This document shows, one piece after another, positions 53,007 through 56,146 of a stretch of 64,000 nucleotides of DNA. The translations under genes were made by a program, and so were the position numbers. The DNA is from Klebsiella pneumoniae. GTDB taxonomy: Bacteria; Desulfobacterota; Binatia; UBA12015. Every line of letters begins with the position of its first letter. Within the stretch, counting starts at the first letter, position 1. The notes below the pieces were generated by a model, which had not been told where the DNA came from, ran no database searches, and saw only the letters and a list, made by a program, of their open reading frames with translations. The DNA is taken from the NCBI GenBank assembly GCA_945872365.1, contig CAMBZJ010000008.1, positions 1 to 64,000 of the forward strand, in the 5' to 3' direction.

Positions 53007-53741
53007 ATGCAGCCACGGCCTGAAACCGCGCGACATATCGACGAGATCGGCACGAAGCTCTTCGCCGGACTCGGCAGCAACGCGATCTCGGTCGAAGTCT
53101 ATGGCAGTGCCGCGAGCGACGACTTCGCCCCGCGACACTCCGACGTCAACCTGTTCATCGCCCTCCATAACGTCTCGTTCGCCGATCTCCGCCTGATCGG
53201 CACCGTGCTCCAGCGCGAGTCGGACCGGCTCGGGCTGCGCTTCGCCACCCCGCTGGTGGTCCGCCCGGACTTCCTCGATACCGCCGGCGACTCCTTCCCG
53301 ATCGAACTCACCGACATGCGCCTGCGCCATCGCCTGCTCGCCGGGGCGGACCTGATCCCCCGGCTGCTCATCCCGGCGGAGGCGCTGCGCACCGCGGCCG
53401 AGCGCGAGGCCCGGACCACCCTGCTGCGCCTGCACAGCCTCGCGATCCACCGGCCGCAGGACTTCCACGTGCGCGAGGCGCTGGCCCAACTCGTCTCTGC
53501 CGTGGTGGTCATCTGCAGCGCGCGCCTCGACGCGCCGACGATGCGCTTGCCGCGGCAGCCGGAATTGCTGCGCCGAACGAGCGAGCAGGCCGGCGTGAAC
53601 CTCTCGCACTTCGAGCAGCTCCACGAGATGCGCGAAGGCCGACGCGCCTGGCCCGAGGATCTCGATCTCGACCGGTTCCTCGACGCCCTGATCGACGAGA
53701 TGGAGGCCCTGGTCCGGGCGATCGATGCGCACCGCGTCTGA
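53007..53741 (+). CDS. Nucleotidyltransferase-fold protein (possibly inactive)
   Basis: The 244-residue protein has a pol-beta-type nucleotidyltransferase domain: VYGSAASDDF (Gly33-Ser34) and SDVNLFI, in which the second metal Asp of the usual DxD is Asn48. A helical domain follows, as in kanamycin-nucleotidyltransferase-like proteins. Such D-to-N forms are common in this sub-group and activity is unclear. Its end overlaps the TPM gene by 17 bases. Confidence 0.75.
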   Translation: MQPRPETARHIDEIGTKLFAGLGSNAISVEVYGSAASDDFAPRHSDVNLFIALHNVSFADLRLIGTVLQRESDRLGLRFATPLVVRPDFLDTAGDSFPIELTDMRLRHRLLAGADLIPRLLIPAEALRTAAEREARTTLLRLHSLAIHRPQDFHVREALAQLVSAVVVICSARLDAPTMRLPRQPELLRRTSEQAGVNLSHFEQLHEMREGRRAWPEDLDLDRFLDALIDEMEALVRAIDAHRV

Positions 53742-54621
53742 GATCGCCGCGAAGGATCCGCGCCGCGCGCGCCGATCCCGACTCTCCCCGCTCGCCGGAC
53801 TGCTCGCGGTCGCGGCGCTGGCGTGGCTGCCCCTCGTCTCGCCGCGTCCCGCAGCGGCCCAGGCAAAGCACATCGACGTGCCCCCGCCCGGGGGCTTCGT
53901 GTCGGACTTCGCCGGGGTGGTCGAGCCGGCGACCCGGCAACGGCTCGAACTCCTGATCCAGGAACTCAAGCAGAAGACCGGGGCCGAGATCGCCGTCGTG
54001 ACGCTGCGCTCGACGCAGCCCGAGACCATCGACGATTACGCGATGGCGATCGCCGAGCGCTGGAAGCCCGGCGTCGCCGGCAAGGACAACGGCGTCGTCT
54101 TCCTGGTCGCGACGGACGACCGCAAGATGCACATCCTGACGGGCTACGGGGTCGAGGGCCCCCTGCCCGACGGCAAGGTCGGGGCGATCCGAGACCAGCT
54201 GGTGGTCCCGGCGTTCCGGCAGGGCGACTTCTCCCGCGGCATCTCCGACGCGACGATGGCGCTCGCGGGCGCGATCGCGAACGACGCCGGGGTCACGCTC
54301 ACCGGACTGCCCAAGCGCACGCGCGCCGCACCGCAGGAGATCAGCCTGTTCCAGTTGCTGTTCCTGCTCCTGCTCTTCTTCATCATCATGCGGCTCATGA
54401 TGGGAGCCGCTGGTCAGAACGCCCGGCCTGGTTACGGATACGATCCGCACGATCAGGGATTCTCGCGCTCCGGATGGCGGCGCGGTGGATTCGGCGGCGG
54501 CTTCGGCGGTGGCCTGGGCGGTGGATTCGGGGAGGTTTCGGGTGGCAGTGGAGGCTTTGGTGGATTCGGTGGATTCGGCGGCGGTCGCTTCGGAGGAGGC
54601 GGCGCCGGAGGGAGTTGGTGA
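53725..54621 (+). CDS. TPM-domain exported protein (YgcG-like)
   Basis: The 298-residue protein has a long basic n-region, a hydrophobic signal ending PAAAQA (about residue 46), and a TPM domain at about 55-180 (GFVSDFAGVVEPATRQRLELLI, KTGAEIAVVTL, DNGVVFLVATDDRKMHILTGYGVEG). A transmembrane helix follows at about 212-232. The last 55 residues are almost entirely Gly, Phe, Ser and Arg repeats. TPM proteins are often encoded with LemA, which follows one base later here. Confidence 0.9.
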   Translation: MRTASEIAAKDPRRARRSRLSPLAGLLAVAALAWLPLVSPRPAAAQAKHIDVPPPGGFVSDFAGVVEPATRQRLELLIQELKQKTGAEIAVVTLRSTQPETIDDYAMAIAERWKPGVAGKDNGVVFLVATDDRKMHILTGYGVEGPLPDGKVGAIRDQLVVPAFRQGDFSRGISDATMALAGAIANDAGVTLTGLPKRTRAAPQEISLFQLLFLLLLFFIIMRLMMGAAGQNARPGYGYDPHDQGFSRSGWRRGGFGGGFGGGLGGGFGEVSGGSGGFGGFGGFGGGRFGGGGAGGSW

Positions 54622-54622
54622 A

Positions 54623-55213
54623 ATGATGAACGATCGCAGAGGAAGAATCGGTCTGGGTTTCGCAGGTCGAGGGCTCGTCGCCCTCGCGGCCCTGATGCTG
54701 GGCTCACAGCTCGCCGGGTGCGGCTACAACACGCTCGTCTCGCAGAAGGAGGCGATCGGTGGCCAGTGGTCGCAGGTCGAGAACCAGTTGCAGCGGCGCA
54801 ATGACCTGATCCCGAACCTGGTCGAGGTGACCAAGGGTTACGCGACCCACGAGAAGGACGTCTTCGACAACATCGCCAAGGCCCGCGCGCAGATGCTCGG
54901 CGCGAAGACCAAGGACGCACAGATCGACGCCGCCAACTCCATGTCGGGCGCCCTCGGTCGGCTGCTCGCGCTCGCCGAGGCCTATCCGCAACTCAAGGCC
55001 GACACCCAGTTCGCGCGGCTCTCGGACGAACTCGCCGGCACCGAGAACCGGATCGCCACCGAACGGCGGCGCTACAACGACATGGTCCAGACGTTCAACA
55101 CGTCGGTGAAATCGCTGCCGACATCGCTCTGGGCGGGCTGGGCCGGCTTCCAGCCGGAGAAGTACTTCGAGGTCGCCCCCGGGGCGCAAGCTGTCCCGCA
55201 GGTCAAGTTCTAG
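54623..55213 (+). CDS. lemA: LemA-family lipoprotein
   Basis: The 196-residue protein has a signal ending in the lipobox QLAGC (Cys33) and a LemA four-helix domain: GQWSQVENQLQRRNDLIPNLVEVTKGYA, FDNIAKAR, NRIATERRRYNDMVQTFNT and the C-terminal GFQPEKYFEV. LemA proteins are conserved but poorly understood envelope proteins. It is coupled to the TPM gene. Two in-frame ATGs (54623, 54626) are equally possible. Downstream are two strong hairpins. Confidence 0.94.
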   Translation: MMNDRRGRIGLGFAGRGLVALAALMLGSQLAGCGYNTLVSQKEAIGGQWSQVENQLQRRNDLIPNLVEVTKGYATHEKDVFDNIAKARAQMLGAKTKDAQIDAANSMSGALGRLLALAEAYPQLKADTQFARLSDELAGTENRIATERRRYNDMVQTFNTSVKSLPTSLWAGWAGFQPEKYFEVAPGAQAVPQVKF

Positions 55214-55318: not shown

Positions 55319-56146
55319 ATGTCCTACGCCACGACGAATACGCGTCTAGCGGACTGCCGCGAACACGGCGCCGGCTCCGGCGCGGAGCTCTTCGTGGTCG
55401 AGGGCGAGTCGGCCTCCCGCGCGGTCGAGAGCGTGCGCGACGCACGCCTCCAGGCGGTGCTGCCGATGCAGGGCAAGCCGCTGAACGCGGTGAAGGCTTC
55501 GCGCAAGACGGTCGCTGCGAATGCGCTCTTCGCGGCCCTCGTCGAGGCGATAGGCACCGGTTGGGACGACGCCTTCGACCTCTCCGCCGCCCGCTACGAC
55601 CGGGTCGTGCTGCTGACCGATCCCGACGCCGATGGGATCCACTGCGGCGTGCTGCTGCTCATGTTCTTCCACCGCTGGATGCGCCCCTGGCTCGACGACG
55701 GACGCCTCCTCGCGGTGCAGGCGCCGATGTTCGAGATCGTGCCCGCGACCGGTGCGCCGATCCGCGCGTACACCGAGGAGGAGTACCGGGAGCAGCTCGA
55801 AGAACTCGGGCGTTCGGGGGCCGGGATCGAGTCGAAGATACGGCACCGCGGGCTCGGCAGCATCGACCCGGGTACGCTGCGGACGTGCTGCGTCGTGCCG
55901 GAGACGCGTCGGGCGTTCCGGCTCCGGGCGGAGGACGCGGTGGCGGCGATCGACGTGTTCGCGCCGGGGATGGGGGGAAAGGCCGCGGGCGGGCGCGAAG
56001 GTTCGGGGAGCAGTAAACTCGCAGGGGCGAAGAACTCCCTGCGCGACGGGCGGTCGGCGAAGGCGGACGCGCAGCAACTGCCGTTATTCGGGGAGGCGGG
56101 CAAGGCTCCGCGACGCGGATCGGGCGGACGAAACCAGAGTTCGTGA
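55319..56146 (+). CDS. Stand-alone GyrB/ParE C-terminal half (TOPRIM) protein
   Basis: The 275-residue protein corresponds to only the C-terminal half of a type IIA topoisomerase B subunit. RLADC and LFVVEGESAS carry the TOPRIM Glu, AVLPMQGKPLNAVKAS follows, and LTDPDADG keeps all three acidic metal residues. RHRGLGSIDPGTLRTCCVVPETRRAFRLRAED matches the GyrB C-terminus. The GHKL ATPase and transducer domains are absent, and the upstream 105 bases show no remnant. After the domain a Gly/Ser/Lys-rich tail contains QLPLF (253-257), which resembles the sliding-clamp-binding consensus QLxLF. The open frame and intact catalytic residues argue against decay. Function unknown. Confidence 0.8.
   Translation: MSYATTNTRLADCREHGAGSGAELFVVEGESASRAVESVRDARLQAVLPMQGKPLNAVKASRKTVAANALFAALVEAIGTGWDDAFDLSAARYDRVVLLTDPDADGIHCGVLLLMFFHRWMRPWLDDGRLLAVQAPMFEIVPATGAPIRAYTEEEYREQLEELGRSGAGIESKIRHRGLGSIDPGTLRTCCVVPETRRAFRLRAEDAVAAIDVFAPGMGGKAAGGREGSGSSKLAGAKNSLRDGRSAKADAQQLPLFGEAGKAPRRGSGGRNQSS

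Follow-up and report, generated by a model that had tools for sequence, protein, structure and literature searches.

The usual view of gyrase and topoisomerase IV is of fixed two-subunit systems, with a B subunit that links ATP to strand passage. One gene in the window, the whole 64,000-nucleotide stretch of DNA that was analysed, encodes only the cleavage half of such a B subunit. This raises the question of whether half a topoisomerase subunit is a broken gene or a protein in its own right, and what it might do without its ATPase. The stand-alone gene is real, conserved and apparently undescribed; a literature search found no description of a stand-alone GyrB C-terminal half. An earlier note on this DNA had suggested that the protein could be a previously undescribed factor, and its interpretation is supported in part. 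The protein is not isolated but represents one branch of a wider free-standing family, here defined as the stand-alone GyrB C-terminal-half family.

Gene and Protein Architecture

The 275-residue protein matches the Pfam Toprim family with an E value of 1.1e-11, and a match to DNA_gyraseB_C (PF00986) at E 1.9e-4 falls below that family's cut-off (Table 1). Alignments to the NCBIfam GyrB/ParE models, which are about 640 positions long, start at about position 400 and cover only the C-terminal half. Neither Pfam nor NCBIfam finds a GHKL ATPase or transducer domain in the protein, and none is present in the sequence preceding the gene. Directly upstream is a LemA gene that ends at 55213, preceded by a TPM-domain gene, and there is therefore no hidden ATPase part. 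The earlier description of a protein reduced to the TOPRIM and C-terminal parts is thus borne out, and column comparison shows that the final GyrB segment (LMG..V.PR..FI...A, the last ~25 residues) is missing in the stand-alone clade as well.

Table 1. Features of the stand-alone gene and its product (positions in the window).
Feature	Positions	Strand	Remarks
Stand-alone GyrB C-terminal-half gene	55319..56146	+	ATG to TGA, 275 aa; genus orthologues L008 and L009; ~30-member family
TOPRIM domain, residues 23-118	55385..55672	+	Pfam PF01751; fold match (predicted) to GyrB/ParE cleavage cores
Catalytic Glu28 in VEGES	55400..55402	+	Shared by nearly every row, stand-alone or full-length; no variation among 29 stand-alone rows
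DPDADG metal-binding motif, Asp101/Asp103/Asp105	55619..55636	+	Invariant in 29/29 stand-alone rows
Shortened GyrB C-terminal domain, residues 175-223	55841..55987	+	PF00986 positions 8-56 of 63; column comparison
Genus-specific low-complexity tail	55970..56143	+	Predicted disordered, pLDDT <50 for 218-274 (AlphaFold2); tail dN ~0.6-0.8
QLPLF, candidate beta-clamp-binding motif, residues 253-257	56075..56089	+	Kept in three species by different codons

An AlphaFold2 model, which rests on a shallow alignment of five rows, has a confident core at about residues 7-217 followed by a disordered tail. The predicted core matches solved GyrB/ParE cleavage cores (Foldseek E 3e-20; VIA Z ~21-24), and the nearest solved relatives by sequence are also GyrB/ParE cleavage-core structures. 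As modelled, the full TOPRIM-plus-tail fold is like that of these solved cores.

For E. coli, GyrB47 (residues 393-804) has been described as a stable recombinant fragment (PMC7897471). Like the GyrB47 and ParE30 constructs, the window protein combines a TOPRIM with a C-terminal domain and has the E and DxDxD acids, the H after DxDxDG, and the K and N of GKxLN. Unlike them, it is the product of a natural stand-alone gene, with ~35% identity, changed motifs, loss of the last ~25 residues and a genus-specific QLPLF tail. It resembles ParE in lacking the ~170-residue insert of long GyrB, but falls outside the ParE/GyrB clade (SH-aLRT 100), and the planctomycete carriers of its relatives that were examined have no ParC/ParE. 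Part of a B subunit is also encoded by a separate gene in phage T4, whose topoisomerase II includes gp39 and gp60 (the chain in 8yo3 is named gp39-gp60). The T4 pieces, however, together form the only B subunit of that phage, whereas the window genome has a complete GyrB and a complete ParE and no free ATPase half was found in it.

Catalytic Residues and Family-Specific Changes

E28, D101, D103, D105, H108, K53 and N56 are invariant in the 29 stand-alone sequences and common to GyrB/ParE. The chance of finding all four acids among the 35 invariant columns of 213 is 6e-4. The catalytic Glu and three Asp that the earlier note had picked out are thus not only kept in this protein, but are under selection across the family.

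Several other motifs have changed, some of them at residues that almost all full-length subunits share. EGDSAGG has become EG[ED]SAA, with E or D at position 30; PL[R/K]GK has become PMQGK, with Q at position 51 in 90% of the members; DADxDGxHI has become DPDADGIHC; KGLGEMN has become RGLAAID-like; and T191 is replaced by C, with the LPGK lead-in also lost. The window protein carries all the signatures of the family: VEG[ED]SAA, MQGKPLNA, DPDADGIHCG and RGLxxID, an ORF start ~10 residues before LxDC, and no ATPase. The altered motifs and the missing last ~25 residues could mean a changed active site or a lost GyrA interface, and it is chiefly because of the PMQGK and GLAAID changes and the lost C-terminal segment that the mechanism calls for caution.

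P102, C109 and C191 (nucleotides 55622-55624, 55643-55645 and 55889-55891) are new to the stand-alone clade, in which they are invariant, and are not found in GyrB/ParE. The two cysteines might be structural or bind metal.

Relatives and Distribution

The two other genus members sampled have the short gene as well, at 72-75% identity and with the same start and length class, so that the truncated architecture does recur in the clade as the earlier note had asked. In 11 other genomes of the same family, only full-length GyrB/ParE were found, at identities of at most 38%, and a scan of 394 more genomes from the phylum produced no strong match. About 30 more free-standing relatives, at ~45-55% identity, come from one planctomycete lineage and from a Thiodictyon plasmid. 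In the reading frames around these relatives, the match begins ~10 residues before the LxDC motif, and the ATPase region is absent from the frames around each of them. Two planctomycete matches (L065 and L084) reach their stop codon slightly sooner, by a few codons, and contig ends truncate some others.

Among planctomycete metagenome-assembled genomes (MAGs), 33 of the 98 genomes around the one lineage have a free-standing copy. The distribution is patchy and requires at least ~3-5 gains or losses on the GyrB tree, a count that may be inflated by genes missing from incomplete MAGs. In this lineage (relatives of G058 and G060), gyrase is seemingly the sole type IIA enzyme, and roughly a third to half of the genomes carry the stand-alone half.

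Plasmid pTs417 of Candidatus Thiodictyon syntrophicum encodes a stand-alone relative of 226 residues and 50.7% identity (WP_100922781.1), which RefSeq annotates by domain only, as a “toprim domain-containing protein”. Like the window protein it is free-standing; unlike it, it is plasmid-borne and has no QLPLF tail. PRTRC and conjugation-like genes surround it. The neighbours at this locus (L045, NZ_CP020371.1 167498-184130), PRTRC-system genes together with genes for an RNB-domain ribonuclease and a helicase, suggest a plasmid maintenance context. A phage origin was considered and rejected, since viral and phage matches were ordinary type II topoisomerases at ~24-40% identity, none of them near the stand-alone clade.

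Phylogeny and Selection

In a tree with 32 full-length GyrB/ParE, the 29 stand-alone sequences group in a single clade (SH-aLRT 100), separate from both GyrB and ParE rather than placed inside either. The three genus sequences make up a sub-clade (99) and the planctomycetes another (94). The tree is compatible with a single origin and later transfer between distant phyla.

Within the genus, the core has a dN of ~0.13 and a dS of ~0.46-0.49, a ratio of ~0.27, and by these substitution rates is under purifying selection. The tail drifts, with a dN of ~0.6-0.8 as opposed to 0.13 in the core. Over the TOPRIM columns of 15 planctomycetes, mean identity is 65% for the stand-alone proteins vs. 93% for GyrB of the same genomes.

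Genome Context

The genome is 3.12 Mb in size and 97% complete. The full-length gyrB and parE whose presence elsewhere the earlier note had proposed to check are both there: a complete GyrB (an 817-residue frame) adjoins GyrA, and a complete ParE (a 637-residue frame) is found together with ParC. A split gyrB whose ATPase half is encoded elsewhere was rejected, as the genome has no stand-alone PF00204 match. A third GyrA-like partner was likewise rejected, as only two PF00521 genes are present. In another genome of the same family (G003), a third GyrA-like/GyrB-like pair lies side by side at a contig end (L010, G003:C19:1-3279), in addition to gyrase and topoisomerase IV.

Downstream of the gene are sulfotransferase and DUF4345 genes. 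DUF4345 is found near the gene in all three genus members, and the LemA-TPM pair is adjacent in two of them. The TPM-domain gene followed by LemA, at 53725-55213 of the window, is kept in genome G001 (L105). Comparison of neighbourhoods by all-against-all BLAST revealed no conserved neighbour of the stand-alone family, which is consistent with a partner encoded elsewhere. An operon partner was therefore rejected: the planctomycete neighbourhoods have in common only lineage-local genes, among them those for a MocA oxidoreductase, a sigma-factor-like protein and DUF1559 pilin-like proteins. A role as an anti-phage defence TOPRIM protein was also rejected, as no PADLOC defence family matched the protein at E values up to 0.1.

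The QLPLF Tail

All three genus members retain QLPLF inside an otherwise unconserved tail, with different codons in each: CAA CTG CCG TTA TTC, CAA TTG CCG CTC TTC and CAG CTT CCG CTC TTC. A random tail of 51 residues with the same composition would match QLxLF with a chance of ~3e-4. The clamp-binding consensus is QL[S/D]LF or, more generally, QxxLF (PMC12309361). QLPLF fits the general form, with P in place of S/D at position 3, and sits in the tail predicted to be disordered. DinB of the same genome has QMSLF, and an ImuB-like protein has QLDLF near its C-terminal part. Mycobacterial ImuB reportedly has QLPLW, and proline at the third position would then be tolerated.

From its sequence, clamp binding by QLPLF is plausible for this genus only. 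Among 136 related frames (some loci counted twice), no comparable motif was present in the last 60 residues outside the genus. The idea of a clamp-binding motif thus survives for the three genus orthologues and fails for the ~30 distant free-standing relatives; as a family-wide feature, the motif was rejected. Clamp tethering consequently cannot be the core function of the family, and clamp binding would at most have been added in this lineage.

Proposed Mechanism and Alternatives

The TOPRIM domains of type IIA enzymes supply metal ions, and the tyrosine comes from GyrA/ParC. With every acid conserved in the stand-alone half, action on a host A subunit is the most economical proposal. The protein would dock on the host GyrA (or ParC), displacing GyrB/ParE, and provide the metal ions with which the tyrosine of GyrA/ParC cleaves DNA. 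Without an ATP-operated entry gate, such a complex would cleave and reseal DNA and at most relax it passively, with no supercoiling. The protein would then serve as a topoisomerase II'-like relaxase or modulate the pool of holoenzyme. A further step, confined to this genus, would be binding of the DnaN clamp by the disordered tail through QLPLF, which would bring the activity to sites of replication or repair.

There is a precedent in E. coli topoisomerase II', an active complex of GyrA and a C-terminal fragment of GyrB. By analogy, the expected active complex here would also consist of GyrA and an ATPase-less GyrB half; unlike topoisomerase II', which contains a truncated gyrB product, the half comes from a dedicated, divergent gene. 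In nearly all of the planctomycete carriers examined, GyrA and full-length GyrB are each present once and ParC/ParE are absent, and any A-subunit partner there must therefore be GyrA. The exceptions are G782 without a GyrB match, G766 without a GyrA match and G761 with GyrA split between contigs, which are assembly gaps, as well as G749 with two GyrB-type matches.

The gene at 55319-56146 is quite possibly, if short of probably, a natural counterpart of the 47-kDa C-terminal GyrB fragment, an ATPase-free B subunit of a type IIA topoisomerase. This estimate is a joint one that covers the ATPase-free B subunit, docking on GyrA/ParC, the topoisomerase II'-like or modulator role and clamp tethering in the genus. 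The architecture, the invariant metal-binding acids, the purifying selection, the single free-standing clade and the lack of a conserved neighbour are observed, and the fold is predicted; docking and role would follow from analogy with known type IIA enzymes.

A protein of this kind might also act without cutting DNA, as a regulator that takes the place of the B subunit on GyrA/ParC and dampens or diverts the activity of the holoenzyme. The PMQGK and GLAAID changes and the lost C-terminal segment would suit such a function, as would an evolutionary rate much faster than that of GyrB in the same genomes and a patchy presence that fits a dispensable modulator. However, the family evolves fast and yet none of its four metal-binding acids varies. 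A pure competitor would have no need of them, which makes this reading unlikely. The opposite possibility, that the protein is a metal-dependent DNA nuclease or nickase that works without GyrA like other TOPRIM nucleases, takes account of the intact E/DxDxD set and of a stand-alone gene with the new invariant residues P102, C109 and C191. The earlier note had read the retained acids as arguing for a working nuclease or relaxase-like enzyme, a GyrA/ParC partner or a topoisomerase regulator. But the accessory domains of other TOPRIM nucleases are of different kinds, and this protein still has the GyrB-type core with the greater part of the C-terminal domain; in addition, it has no defence family match, and the type IIA TOPRIM relies on the GyrA/ParC tyrosine. 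An independent nuclease is possible but less likely, and we consider it distinctly improbable.

The residues at positions 30 and 51, which we take to be equivalent to the quinolone-resistance positions D426 and K447 of E. coli GyrB (our own numbering), raise the possibility that a B-like subunit altered at these sites shields or replaces poisoned gyrase. In 90% of the members Q stands in place of R/K at position 51, and position 30 holds E or D, but these changes are accompanied by many others, and no antibiotic or toxin gene is linked to the family in the neighbourhoods examined. Protection from gyrase poisons is accordingly a long shot. Hardly credible at all is the idea that a duplicated gyrB/parE is decaying and has left this fragment, or that the assembly is at fault. 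It would account for the presence of only half of a known gene, but the genus members share the start, length class and neighbours (DUF4345 in 3/3, LemA-TPM in 2/3), the core dN/dS is ~0.27, and one monophyletic stand-alone family spans three distant lineages. An assembly break or pseudogene was rejected on the basis of this genus conservation, synteny and dN/dS; the relatives are not full-length at this locus, which is the case that the earlier note had named as a refutation.

Significance

That a gene for the cleavage half is conserved, and that its catalytic acids have been retained in several lineages, implies either type IIA complexes without an ATP gate or regulation of gyrase by subunit exchange. 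In the most far-reaching version of the preferred reading, an ATPase-free B subunit as a dedicated protein would let GyrA (or ParC) work as an additional topoisomerase that needs no ATP, a third type IIA assembly beside gyrase and topoisomerase IV to which one genus would have added a fork-tethering clamp tail; as a whole, this is rather unlikely. The genus-specific clamp motif makes the fork-tethered version directly testable. In the gyrase-only lineages that lack topoisomerase IV, the stand-alone half could bear on the balance between supercoiling and decatenation.
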